NCBI RefSeq assembly: GCF_000147355.1
Contig: NC_014506.1
Coordinates: forward strand, 1,922,001-1,986,000
Origin: Sulfurimonas autotrophica DSM 16294
Lineage (GTDB): Bacteria > Campylobacterota > Campylobacteria > Campylobacterales > Sulfurimonadaceae
DNA length: 64,000 bases
Direction of reading: 5' to 3'
Shown here: piece after piece, positions 58,043 to 64,000 of the stretch
Position numbering within the stretch: position 1 is the stretch's first letter
How the letters are laid out: every line of letters begins with the position of its first letter
Made by a program: the position numbers and the translations under genes
The notes under the pieces: generated by a model
Database searches by the model: none
Told to the model about the DNA's origin: nothing
What the model saw: the letters and a program-made list of their open reading frames with translations, nothing else

Positions 58043-58131
58043 GGATCTTTGGCAGAGTTGGTCGAATGCACCGGTCTTGAAAACCGGCGAGGGTCATACC
58101 TCCCAGAGTTCGAATCTCTGAGGGTCCACCA
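58043..58131 (+). tRNA. tRNA-Ser (TGA), presumed integration site
   Basis: GGATCTT acceptor pairing with GGGTCC through wobble pairs, anticodon loop CTTGAAA (TGA anticodon), long variable arm, T arm GAGTTCGAATCTC, encoded CCA. A small CCCTA/TAGGG hairpin follows. Mobile-element genes begin immediately downstream, as expected for a tRNA attachment site. Confidence 0.93.
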
Positions 58132-58269: not shown

Positions 58270-59157
58270 TTAAATTTTATGTTGTTCTTCAAAAACATTT
58301 AACCAATAATCAAGTAAAGGTTGATTACTTGCACACTCTATAAATAATGCTTTCTGAATAATATTTTCATCAATACTTTTAGTGTCAATTTCATCTAAAA
58401 TAATTTCTTTAAATTTTTCTATCATTTCCTCATTATTATACTTTGTGTATTTCTTTATGTAAATTTTTTCTAGTCTTTTAGCAAGTTCATCAAAGTAATT
58501 TCTCCATAATGTAACTATCTTTCTTCCTATCGCAACTGTTTTTATATGTTCCAAACATAGTTCTTGTTCTACCTGACTCAAGTCATCTATAATTTTAATA
58601 TTAAACTTAGCAGCTTCAAAAGGTGGAAGAATTTCACATACTATAAAATCATGACTATAAATATTAATATCATGATATGGATTTAATGCAAATCTTGTAT
58701 TAGTTGTCGTATTAATTGAAATATTACCTTTACTTGCATTACAGTCTGTGCAGATAACTATCATATTAGGTAAATATAACGAAAATTCTGGAAATATTGA
58801 TTTTGGTAAAAAATGGTCTATTTGTTTTGCTTCTGTAAGAGCACAATAAGGGCATAAAGTACCCTCTTTTAGTATTTTCTTTATATCTTTTAAATATTCT
58901 TTTGCATACTGCTCTGGTGAATTATACATATGAAGAAGGGAGTATTTTGCATTTATCTTTGTTGAAGGAACATTTAAACTAATAGTACTCTCTCCAATAT
59001 TTTCTAAATTAGTTTGATTTAAGTCATAAACTAGATACCTAGATTTAACATAATCCTGCACATATTTTAAAAGAGTTTTTCTTGCATTATTTTTATTATT
59101 AATAACCTTATCTAAGTATTTTGTATGTTCCCCATCCAACACATCTAATTTAATCAT
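58270..59157 (-). CDS. HNH endonuclease, Septu PtuB-like
   Basis: A 295-residue protein with an HNH/zinc-finger nuclease core: CPYC at 102-105, IDHFLPK at 113-119 (catalytic His), CTDCNASKG at 136-144 (second zinc pair and Asn/Lys). The rest is helical. In Septu systems PtuB carries such a nuclease and works with an ABC-type ATPase, as found here upstream with an 8-base overlap. Defence function is inferred from this pairing. Confidence 0.82.
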   Translation of the reverse strand: MIKLDVLDGEHTKYLDKVINNKNNARKTLLKYVQDYVKSRYLVYDLNQTNLENIGESTISLNVPSTKINAKYSLLHMYNSPEQYAKEYLKDIKKILKEGTLCPYCALTEAKQIDHFLPKSIFPEFSLYLPNMIVICTDCNASKGNISINTTTNTRFALNPYHDINIYSHDFIVCEILPPFEAAKFNIKIIDDLSQVEQELCLEHIKTVAIGRKIVTLWRNYFDELAKRLEKIYIKKYTKYNNEEMIEKFKEIILDEIDTKSIDENIIQKALFIECASNQPLLDYWLNVFEEQHKI

Positions 59158-60868
59158 TTAATATCTCATTTCTAATATACATCAACGACTCAGAATTTAA
59201 TTTATCTCTATATTGCTCTAAAATGTCACTAATACTATCATTCTTATCAATATTTTCTATCAGCCAGTTTTCAAATGGTCTTTCCTCTAATATATTATTA
59301 AAAGTATAGTTACAAATTGTATTTAAATTTCCACCAAATGTTTCTATTACTGCAGGTGTGTAGATAAATGATTTATCATTTTCTTGTATATCAAACACTC
59401 TTACAAATTTAGAAGGTGTTTCTCTTGTTATAATTAAAGAATGGGTGGCAATAATTGCATATGAATTAAATATATGTAAAATTTCTTTTAGTAATCTCAT
59501 AAAAACAATTTCTAAATTGGGGTGTAAATAGCTTTCTGGCTCATCAAAAATCAATAATGATTCTTTTTCAATTTTACCAAGTATGGCAAATATCATATAT
59601 GTGAAAATCTCTTGTCCAGAGCTTAAATTTAAAATATTATTATCATTATCCAAAAAACAAATCTCTTCTATAAATTTTGCTGGAACTTGTAAATTTGTTA
59701 TTTCTTGGTCTGTATAGCTTTTTAAAATATCTTTTGTATATATTGTTTGAACAATCATATTATCAATAAGTGTCATTTTATTATTTACATCTAATTTTTG
59801 TAAATTATCTATAAGTTTCTTATCTGCCCTTATTCCTATATTTTTTATTGAAGGAATTGCTATTTTCAATACTTCAAAAAGCTTATGTACTTTCATAATA
59901 GATGATTCAAAATCAAATCCATTTGTATCATCTATTATCATTTTTGATAAGGATTTTTTCATATCTTTAAAAACAATATCTTTAGTTATCTGATTTTCTT
60001 TATTTCTTAATCCACTATAACTAAATGATTTACTACCTCCCTGATTATAAAAATCTTCAAAAGGGCTATATGAGATAATAACAACTTTACTAAACTGTGG
60101 AGTTTTAGACAAAGCCTCTTCAGGCTTATATTGAAGTTTTACATCAGAAAATATATCTGCGACTCCTACACCCTGCAAGCATTCCGATAAATGCTTTAAT
60201 GTTTGTGATTTACCGGAACCATTTTTCCCAATTAATGTCATAATATTAGATGGGAAGAAATCATCATGAAAAGTAAAATCTATACTATGCTCATTACTAA
60301 CATTTTCCAATTGGAATGTGAAGTTGAAATCAAATCTATCTTTATCTAAATCTTCTCCAAAAAGAAAATACGAGGCTTCTTTTATCGCTTTTTTTGAGTC
60401 TGTATCTCTCGTTAACGAATTTTCAAATCCATCATCAGTATTTTTTAAATCTAAATCTTCAATTTCAGGATATTTTTTTTCTAAATAAGGAATATCATGT
60501 AAAGTATCTAAAATACTATATAGTTCTTCCTCAGATAAAAGTTCCTTTAACCTTGTATAATACTCACTAGAAGCACCTACGGAAATATATTTTTTATCAA
60601 TATCGATAGTATTGATTTTTATATATTTATCTTTATTTTTACCTTCCATTTTTTGAAAAACTGCATGTGAATCATCTTCATCTTCAAATAGTATTCTTAA
60701 ACCACCAATAGTATAAATTTTTTCTTTATACCAAAGAGACATATGAAAATATGTATAATGACCATAATCATTCCAGTTATCTTCTTTTAAAATTATATAA
60801 TTATTTTCTTTCTTATATCCTAATTTATTTTCATCCGTATGAAAACTTTTTATATATATTATTTTCAC
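59150..60868 (-). CDS. ABC/SMC-type ATPase, Septu PtuA-like, with N-terminal extension
   Basis: A roughly 572-residue ATPase: Walker A GKNGSGKS at about 214, ABC signature LNLSSGQE at about 415, Walker B SLLIFDEPESYLHP at about 438, H-loop IIATHS. About 200 residues precede the ATPase; typical PtuA begins almost directly with Walker A. The extension has DNWNDYGHYTYFHMSLWY, which seems familiar from other prophage ATPases, but I cannot name it. Start: GTG 60868 with AAGGAG 6 bases upstream, not the earlier ATG. TATAAT at 60910-60915 may be its -10. Confidence 0.83.
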   Translation of the reverse strand: MKIIYIKSFHTDENKLGYKKENNYIILKEDNWNDYGHYTYFHMSLWYKEKIYTIGGLRILFEDEDDSHAVFQKMEGKNKDKYIKINTIDIDKKYISVGASSEYYTRLKELLSEEELYSILDTLHDIPYLEKKYPEIEDLDLKNTDDGFENSLTRDTDSKKAIKEASYFLFGEDLDKDRFDFNFTFQLENVSNEHSIDFTFHDDFFPSNIMTLIGKNGSGKSQTLKHLSECLQGVGVADIFSDVKLQYKPEEALSKTPQFSKVVIISYSPFEDFYNQGGSKSFSYSGLRNKENQITKDIVFKDMKKSLSKMIIDDTNGFDFESSIMKVHKLFEVLKIAIPSIKNIGIRADKKLIDNLQKLDVNNKMTLIDNMIVQTIYTKDILKSYTDQEITNLQVPAKFIEEICFLDNDNNILNLSSGQEIFTYMIFAILGKIEKESLLIFDEPESYLHPNLEIVFMRLLKEILHIFNSYAIIATHSLIITRETPSKFVRVFDIQENDKSFIYTPAVIETFGGNLNTICNYTFNNILEERPFENWLIENIDKNDSISDILEQYRDKLNSESLMYIRNEILND

Positions 60869-61019
60869 AAAAAGCTCCTTTATGTAATAAGCCACTCATT
60901 TTAGCAAAAATTATACGGTAAAAATAAAAATAATAAGAAATAGTAAAAAGTAGCTATTTATTCCGTGACAACCTGCAATACTTTTTCAATAAAAATAATT
61001 TTTACTATACACTCCTAAA

Positions 61020-62133: not shown

Positions 62134-63387
62134 CTAAGCTCCTTTTTTCAGAAATTCACTAATCGCACTTACATCAGTAAACTTACCCTCGTGCTGTCTC
62201 TTATTTTTAACATACTTGTTAAGAGTCGTACTTACATTTCTATGTCCAAGTTGAGAACTTACAGAAACTATCCCTACACTATCTTTTTGTTTATTGATAA
62301 GATTAGTCGCAAATGTATGTCTCAGATTATAAAATCTTCTGTAAGGTATTTTACAATATTTTAAATATGATTTCCAAGTACCTTTACTAACCATAGACGG
62401 GTTTTTATAGTTCTTTTTCTCTTGTGTTAAAAATACATAATCTGATTCAACATCTTCAAACAATTCATACTGATTTACTAGTAGATTAAATGATTCATCA
62501 TTCATATCAATTATTCTCTTACCGCTATAAGTTTTGGTTCCTTTAACTCTACCATTTCTAATAGTTTTGGTAATATCAATTTTCTTATTCACAAAATCAA
62601 TATCTGCCCATGTAAGTGCAACCAGTTCTCCACTTCTTATTCCAGTTCCAGCAGATAGGTAAATCATATTCTTTAACTGTCTTCTTGTTCTCGACCAAAC
62701 TTTATGAGTTGTTTCATCTATGTAGTCATCAATACTAGTTAAGATTGTTGTCATCTCTGTATCTGTATATACAATCTCATCATCATCCTCTCTAACTGGG
62801 TTATATTTTTGAGCATTCACAACTGGATTAACTTTAATATACTCTTTTTGCTTTGCTTGTACTAGAATAATATTCAACACACTTCTAATATCTTTTACGG
62901 TTTTTCTCTTAAAGTTCTTCAGAACCCATATCTGCCAATCATCAATATCAGAAGTTTTAATTTTATTAAGCCTATACCCTTTAAAATATGGTGAAATATA
63001 GGCATTGAATTTTTGTTTGTATTCTTTAATTGTATCAATAGATATATTATTTAAAGCCAATTTTTTATCGAATGCTTCTTCATAGAAATCTTCCAAAAGT
63101 GGGATTTTACTCTCCTCATCATCCCCTAACCTTTCTAAATCATATTCTGCTTTTAGATTACTCAAATCCCATAGTAATTGTTTGTCATGTTTTTCTACAT
63201 AGTTAATATTTTTTTTCAGATAATCAAAGCCAGTAGATTTATTTACTTTTTCAGTTTTTCCTCTGAATGTCAATACACCCCTGATGTAAAGTTTTCCATC
63301 CCTTTCTCTAAAACCTATCGTTCCATACTCTCTATCATAAAAAGCTGGGTCCTGAGCTTCAGCTAGTTTTTTCTCTATAGCATCCAT
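62134..63387 (-). CDS. Tyrosine-type site-specific integrase
   Basis: A 417-residue recombinase: N-terminal arm-binding region (about 20-50), core-binding SAM-like domain (about 95-200), catalytic domain with GTGIRSGELVAL (R251), YNLRHTFA (R356; the usual first His is Tyr353, also seen in some phage integrases), LGHRNVSTT (H382) and nucleophile Tyr392. It overlaps the upstream small gene by one base (TAATG). Likely moves the element at the tRNA-Ser. Confidence 0.93.
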   Translation of the reverse strand: MDAIEKKLAEAQDPAFYDREYGTIGFRERDGKLYIRGVLTFRGKTEKVNKSTGFDYLKKNINYVEKHDKQLLWDLSNLKAEYDLERLGDDEESKIPLLEDFYEEAFDKKLALNNISIDTIKEYKQKFNAYISPYFKGYRLNKIKTSDIDDWQIWVLKNFKRKTVKDIRSVLNIILVQAKQKEYIKVNPVVNAQKYNPVREDDDEIVYTDTEMTTILTSIDDYIDETTHKVWSRTRRQLKNMIYLSAGTGIRSGELVALTWADIDFVNKKIDITKTIRNGRVKGTKTYSGKRIIDMNDESFNLLVNQYELFEDVESDYVFLTQEKKNYKNPSMVSKGTWKSYLKYCKIPYRRFYNLRHTFATNLINKQKDSVGIVSVSSQLGHRNVSTTLNKYVKNKRQHEGKFTDVSAISEFLKKGA

Positions 63388-63815: not shown

Positions 63816-64000
63816 TTACCTAACTAGACACTCTCTAACATCTTCTATCGTTGGGGTATAATAATTTAATGTCGTTGATATATTTTTATGAGACATAAGT
63901 GCCTGAGTTAATTTTGGGTTTATTCCATTCATCGACATTTGAGTAATTAAGCCCTTTCTAAAGCTGTGAGTTGAAAATTCTTTACCTAGTACCAACTGTA
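63816..64000 (-). CDS. Tyrosine recombinase, C-terminus only (5' part beyond the window)
   Basis: The frame from the right edge reads STHSFRKGLITQMSMNGINP, KLTQALMSHKNISTTLNYYTPT, ending CLVR and TAA. HSFR and SHKN supply the HxxR and H motifs, NYYTP the Tyr nucleophile. Different from the integrase at 62134 (about 30 percent by eye), so the region has a second recombinase. Confidence 0.85.
   Translation of the reverse strand, partial: QLVLGKEFSTHSFRKGLITQMSMNGINPKLTQALMSHKNISTTLNYYTPTIEDVRECLVR

Follow-up and report, generated by a model that had tools for sequence, protein, structure and literature searches.

The closest described relatives of the gene pair analyzed here are the Septu systems, where the ABC-type ATPase PtuA is partnered by the HNH nuclease PtuB, and the type I-A retrons Ec78/Eco7 and Ec83, which encode a reverse transcriptase together with PtuA and PtuB. 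In infected cells, the target of PtuAB of retron-Eco7 and of Septu EcB88 is tRNA-Tyr, which is depleted or cleaved (PMC13096335, PMC11555353), and the Walker and HNH residues of Septu EcB88 are both essential (PMC13096335). For another Septu, from E. coli ATCC 25922, the reported target is nicked phage DNA (PMC13096335, PMC11555353). A similar two-gene logic is found in WonAB / PD-T4-4, which joins an ABC ATPase (Walker lysine of WonA at residue 34) to a nuclease (PMC12137116), with the ATPase required for nuclease toxicity and with abortive infection; this nuclease is of the PD-(D/E)xK type, whereas the pair described below has an HNH. Finally, PDC-M01 is an unpublished PDC candidate of PADLOC, attributed to Payne et al. 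2021 (PMC11811056). In the open-access literature, we found no paper describing a function for PDC-M01 or for Ea59-Ea31 of phage lambda, nor experiments on any member of this branch. Lambda ea59 and ea31 are non-essential for plaque formation by CRISPRi (PMC10695390), and no other phenotype was found for them in the same literature.

Here, we analyzed two overlapping genes of Sulfurimonas autotrophica DSM 16294 within a stretch of 64,000 nucleotides (the window). We read the pair as a probable anti-phage system of two genes, belonging to the PDC-M01/Ea59-Ea31 family, in which the ATPase would gate the HNH nuclease and its N-terminal domain would act as a sensor; to this reading we give a probability of roughly 75%.

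Anatomy of the pair and its closest relatives

The pair lies behind a tRNA Gly-Leu-Cys-Ser cluster (Table 1). A first-pass annotation, made from the sequence alone, had placed the two genes at 58270-60868 behind tRNA-Ser, with overlapping ends, and both ORFs are exactly there, with 8 bp in common (59150-59157). No stop-free run exceeded 144 codons across 500 shuffles, whereas the ATPase frame has 581, hence the reading frames are not due to chance. The ATPase frame stays open up to GTG 60895, from which we count its residues (the number of the first-pass annotation plus nine). The same annotation put Walker A near residue 214, which is correct for a start at GTG 60868, the one with a Shine-Dalgarno in front. 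The H-loop THS is also intact, and the ATPase has a weak Pfam similarity to SMC_N. The nuclease scores above the cut-off of Pfam HNH and has all the motifs previously listed for it (CPYC, IDHFLPK, CTDCN), with two intact CxxC pairs; C102, C105, H115, N131, C136, and C139 are invariant in 60 relatives.

Table 1. Coordinates of the pair, of its element, and of the HAD genes with the same N-terminal domain. Positions without prefix refer to the window; those prefixed L107 lie past its end, and the other prefixes denote loci in other genomes.
Feature	Position	Strand	Remarks
tRNA-Ser	58043-58131		
tRNA-Ser 3' end, TTCGAATCTCTGAGGGTCCACCA	58109-58131	+	exact repeat 10.6 kb downstream (L107:11668-11690)
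HNH nuclease (PtuB-like, Ea31-type)	58270-59157	-	295 aa; PADLOC, Pfam HNH, PHROG
HNH core CPYC...IDH...N...CTDCN	58738-58854	-	alignment of 60 relatives
ATPase (ABC-type, PtuA-like, Ea59-type)	59150-60868	-	572 aa from GTG 60868; PADLOC, PHROG, motifs
Walker B IFDEPES	59531-59551	-	intact
ABC signature LSSGQ	59612-59626	-	S425, S426, G427 invariant in 13 relatives
Walker A GKNGSGKS	60206-60229	-	residues 223-230 (214-221 counted from GTG 60868)
N-terminal domain core	60398-60808	-	about residues 30-166; alignments, AlphaFold models
Shine-Dalgarno AAAGGAG	60875-60881	-	six bases upstream of GTG 60868
Tyrosine recombinase/integrase of the element	62134-63387	-	Pfam Phage_integrase, E 1.3e-21
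DndC-family PAPS-reductase-like gene and DUF6997 protein (weak Cas4-like similarity)	L107:7252-9398		just past window end, same element
AbiEii-like nucleotidyltransferase gene and neighbour	L107:9539-11298		same element
MNT/HEPN toxin-antitoxin-like pair	L107:11839-12584		second small segment, between two tRNA-Ser repeats
HAD with C-terminal Ea59 N-terminal domain, just before hsdR	L188:4846-6180, L189:11027-12406, L190:4920-6188		
HAD with C-terminal Ea59 N-terminal domain, standing alone	L191:4825-6075, L192:4192-5442		

The best PADLOC models are PDC-M01A for the ATPase (E 2.4e-100, residues 11-576 on positions 2-558 of the 564 of the profile) and PDC-M01B for the HNH protein (E 3.2e-31). 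The two proteins also fall in the PHROG families of lambda Ea59 (8066, E 9.7e-59) and Ea31 (10378, E 1.6e-17), and in a tblastn search against phages they match Ea59 over ATPase residues 30-580 (E about 1e-18) and Ea31 (E 3e-7). Judged by these matches, the window pair is a divergent member of the catalogued candidate family PDC-M01A/PDC-M01B, and Ea59-Ea31 of lambda is a member of the same family. The pair resembles PDC-M01 over nearly the full length of both proteins, N-terminal extension included, and differs in divergence only, with 23-36% identity to relatives. The lambda pair belongs to the b region of the phage, where ea59 adjoins ea31 in the same order as in the window, with a 4-bp overlap; the domain layout with an N-terminal extension is also shared. 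In contrast, identity is about 24%, the two ATPases fall in different subclades of the core tree (see below), and the lambda pair adjoins attP, whereas that of the window is in a chromosomal tRNA-Ser element.

Some observations concern the lambda pair itself. Of 5426 E. coli genomes, 68 have it intact, and many of these are K-12 derivatives used in the laboratory. In the DE3 strains among the hits (H99-H104), ea59 is cut down to its first 870 bp and ea31 has no match, hence the intact pair is absent from common BL21(DE3) strains. Three 48.5-kb "plasmid" records (H23-H25) are lambda-sized and appear to be lambda DNA. A Shewanella canadensis assembly (L071) and a Holosporaceae MAG (L073) also apparently contain lambda sequence, since the length and profile score of their ATPase are those of Ea59.

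We then compared the pair with Septu. In profile comparisons, which the first-pass annotation had proposed as a check, the ATPase is homologous to PtuA (hhalign, 99.1%) and the HNH protein to PtuB (98.5%, E 2.2e-15 over the HNH core). The AlphaFold model of the full-length ATPase (pLDDT 77.9, pTM 0.78) has its best fold matches, spanning residues 182-581, in PtuA of the retrons Ec83 and Ec78 and of E. coli Septu (Z 17.6-14.5). Among these, the type I-A retrons give the highest score of any solved relative (Z 17.6), and their HNH proteins are related to that of the window. Septu, for example E. coli Septu 8eea and Septu EcB88, has a fold match with Z about 17 and shares the Walker, signature, and H-loop motifs. 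The 16 residues from H to N in the HNH (H115-N131) equal the spacing in PtuB of the functional Septu EcB88 (H75-N91) and in PtuB relatives (H61-N77). The window HNH protein is longer than its Septu counterpart and scores 24.5 bits against the NCBIfam PtuB model NF041761, whose equivalog cut-off is 150; being so far under it, its substrate need not be that of PtuB. By these comparisons, the pair is a sister branch of Septu, homologous to the PtuA-PtuB of Septu and retrons. It was not classed as a retron, because no reverse transcriptase ORF was seen within the element around it and the HNH protein is under the PtuB cut-off. The OLD, Gabija, and PARIS systems were rejected too, since Pfam found no TOPRIM domain in either protein and the C-terminal part of the ATPase aligns with PtuA to its end.

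The N-terminal extension and its reuse in restriction operons

In the structure comparison, the first residue of Septu PtuA falls on residue 187 of the ATPase, hence the first ~186 residues of the latter are extra. Septu PtuA lacks them and starts directly with the ATPase, and retron PtuA has a leader of only ~45-60 residues before the aligned part. In the short PtuA-like proteins of our data Walker A is mostly at 30-51, as early as the first-pass annotation had said of PtuA; the canonical position around 30-50 compares with 214/223 in the window ATPase. Among 80 relatives, most have this motif near residues 178-270, and a subset of longer proteins has it near 343-364. The match to Septu claimed by that annotation thus stands for homology to PtuA and PtuB, as given by hhalign and the PtuA fold matches, and fails for the canonical PtuA architecture. 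Likewise, its description of the extension as unusual is right with respect to canonical PtuA and wrong within the PDC-M01A/Ea59 family. The suggestion of a distinct subtype is not supported in the sense of one peculiar to this locus: the extension is common to this family across many phyla, PADLOC already lists the family as a candidate, and lambda has the extension too. It is not common to all PtuA relatives, canonical PtuA being without it.

The extension is well conserved. All of 71 diverse sequences have D43, Y113, and R163, and L36, W41, G64, K67, L99, S105, D134, and S160 are nearly invariant among them; in the domain core the conserved residues are L36, W41, D43, T48, G64, S105, D134, S160, and R163. 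The extension is genuine and defines the whole Ea59 clade, rather than being peculiar to the window genome. Residues 1-190 modelled alone, following another check proposed at first pass, fold into a small beta-sheet followed by helices (pLDDT 75.7) without a convincing match, and the model of the whole protein agrees on the domain. No Pfam family matches the extension, in line with its initial description as an unidentified domain, and 54 members of the domain gave scattered single weak hits only. A profile search of the PDB with the domain returned nothing below E 0.09, and the best Foldseek matches of the N-terminal fragment had E 1.5 in the PDB and E 0.3 in a viral library. The best match of this fragment in the VIA fold search, to the YTH domains of YTHDC1 (Z 3.0), was discarded as within the range of unrelated folds. 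As all scores for the fragment are in this range, we claim no fold for it.

Some relatives have further domains in front. In the longer members from Bacteroidota, AbiJ_NTD3, a domain of abortive-infection proteins, precedes the extension (Pfam, E down to 2e-35), and it occupies the N-terminal ~150 residues of the ATPases of L008, L044, and L051. The equally long ATPases of the actinobacterial L038 and L086 have an N-terminus without Pfam match. Outside the Ea59 type, four PtuA-like ATPases (L153:2307-3779, L157:2456-3946, L155:1725-3512, and L158:2428-3813) carry other N-terminal additions, which put Walker A at 141-276; PtuA-like ATPases in general may have varied front domains.

The extension is also found in another protein. 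Its profile, searched in 249 genomes of the phylum Campylobacterota, matched Ea59-type ATPases and, in five genomes, the C-termini of HAD-family phosphatases (Pfam HAD) of 416-459 aa. The two versions of the domain match in profile-profile comparison (98.7%, E 2.9e-16) and share L36, W41, D43, T48, F50, G64, S105, D134, S160, and R163. The C-terminus of the HAD proteins comes immediately after the SLxR motif, and this delimits the domain to roughly residues 30-166. Type I restriction-modification (R-M) operons contain the HAD-domain gene, between an hsdS-like gene and hsdR, in three of the five genomes; NCBIfam confirmed hsdR there, and hsdM and hsdS were called from gene order and similarity of sequence. 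The gene is solitary in the remaining two genomes. In samples of 349 and 249 genomes from two other phyla, the domain occurred in Ea59-type ATPases only. Two alphaproteobacterial plasmids have a HAD without the domain in an annotated operon hsdM-rhuM-hsdS-Shedu-HAD-hsdR-SprT: in those of Methylocystis rosea (L206:3063-5355) and Neotabrizicola (L207:3039-5343), the Shedu nuclease and HAD genes are next to each other between hsdS and hsdR, and a SprT metalloprotease follows. The reuse of the domain in type I restriction operons supports a role in recognition or sensing, and the idea of an added sensor, put forward at first pass, is plausible given the conservation and portability of the domain.

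These results bear on the simplest alternative, namely that the pair is an ordinary Septu whose N-terminal part is a lineage-specific decoration without function of its own. The ATPase core and the HNH are indeed homologous to PtuA and PtuB, a PADLOC PtuA1 model spans ATPase residues 28-578, and PDC-M01 and Septu calls are in some cases the same in B. cereus (PMC11811056). Yet, in a tree of ATPase cores one branch separates 45 Ea59-type rows from 13 short PtuA-like or other related ATPases with a support of 100/100, although long branches call for caution on detail. The window core falls in the Ea59 clade, not among the short PtuA. Together with the invariance of D43, Y113, and R163 and the reuse of the domain in the HAD phosphatase, this makes a mere decoration unlikely in our opinion.

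Distribution and the tRNA-Ser element

A genome scan with the ATPase alignment identified 80 loci in Pseudomonadota, Bacillota, Bacteroidota, Actinomycetota, Acidobacteriota, Planctomycetota, and others; they were found by the ATPase alone and at least two (L071 and L073) look like lambda sequence. A scan of viral contigs with the single protein gave no match; the alignment was needed. A same-family HNH gene is directly downstream of the ATPase in 79 loci, and the 80th ends at a contig end. In other words, the pairing is obligate across the family. The ATPase is present in 3 of 397 genomes of the phylum sample, and in full length in 2 of 100 genomes of the genus. The pair is thus acquired and not part of the core genome. 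In the core tree, the neighbours of the window ATPase are a copy from an Aliarcobacter plasmid and copies from Vibrionaceae and Rhizobium.

The repeats of the tRNA-Ser 3' end are probably the attL and attR of an integrative element that carries the pair and its own integrase. A second tRNA-Ser 3' fragment is found 1 kb past the repeat, just ahead of the core gene hrpB. Of 41 genomes of the genus, 40 have the tRNA cluster, and several have extra tRNA-Ser 3' repeats, hence the site resembles an integration hotspot; in one relative, just 2.85 kb separates tRNA-Ser from the hrpB behind it. A second tyrosine recombinase is reduced to 96 aa of its C-terminal part, with the N-terminal part missing (63816-64000, continuing to L107:7106), and is a remnant of an earlier element. 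No other dnd genes were seen around the DndC-like gene. At the opposite edge of the window, an ORF (2-829) has a PADLOC match (E 1.7e-67) to DpdF, which belongs to the 7-deazaguanine DNA modification system.

Such a context could also suit a selfish or accessory module of mobile elements, serving for example competitor exclusion or, as a toxin-antitoxin-like pair, plasmid or prophage maintenance rather than host defence. Such pairs are carried by lambda, plasmids, and an integrative element, their distribution is patchy (see the phylum sample above), and the ATPase could keep a toxic nuclease inactive. However, carriage by mobile elements is equally expected for phage-defence genes, the closest solved relatives are defence effectors, and there are many defence families among the neighbours: 146 pair-adjacent genes matched 322 PADLOC families, against 35 for 60 core window genes, which is weak support since families rather than proteins were counted and the genes of the two sets are not from the same genomes. 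We regard such a module as even less likely than an ordinary Septu. A third possibility, DNA repair or recombination of SMC/RecF type with an HNH partner, is suggested by the SMC_N similarity and by SMC/Rad50 heads among the lower-ranked fold matches, and was rejected as very improbable, because PtuA structures score Z 17.6, above the roughly 14 of these heads, and align through the C-terminal part up to residue 581, and because the patchy distribution is unlike that of core repair genes.

Proposed function

We therefore retain the reading of the pair as an anti-phage system. The observations in its favour are the pairing with HNH in 79 of 80 loci together with the PtuA-like fold and the PADLOC and lambda matches; the H-to-N spacing shared with Septu EcB88, where both activities are essential; the tRNA-Ser element with its DndC-like, DUF6997, AbiEii-like, and MNT/HEPN genes; and AbiJ_NTD3 ahead of some relatives, along with the domain in type I R-M operons. 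In the proposed mechanism, the ABC-type ATPase would dimerise or oligomerise, an oligomer being expected by analogy with PtuA, and would restrain the HNH nuclease. During infection, the N-terminal domain would sense a trigger, and ATP binding or hydrolysis would alter the complex. The nuclease would then cut nucleic acid, either host tRNA, as in retron-Eco7 and Septu EcB88, or phage DNA, as in the Septu of ATCC 25922, and this would halt phage production. This scheme is inferred throughout, from the defence activity and the oligomer to the sensing, its trigger, and the substrate of the nuclease.

Two points go beyond the existing catalogue: the pair is linked to lambda Ea59-Ea31, and its portable domain also occurs in the R-M-associated HAD phosphatase. 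A bolder idea, against which we lean slightly, is that the extension is a mobile recognition domain of defence proteins by which two unrelated enzymes, PtuA-like ATPases (Ea59 included) and this phosphatase, perceive the same kind of infection signal, with lambda carrying an unrecognised Septu-like exclusion. Placing Ea59 and Ea31 with PtuA and PtuB matters because they are among the few lambda genes without a known role. As for the trigger sensor of Septu-like systems, the N-terminal domain, conserved in many phyla and reused within R-M operons of type I, offers a concrete candidate.
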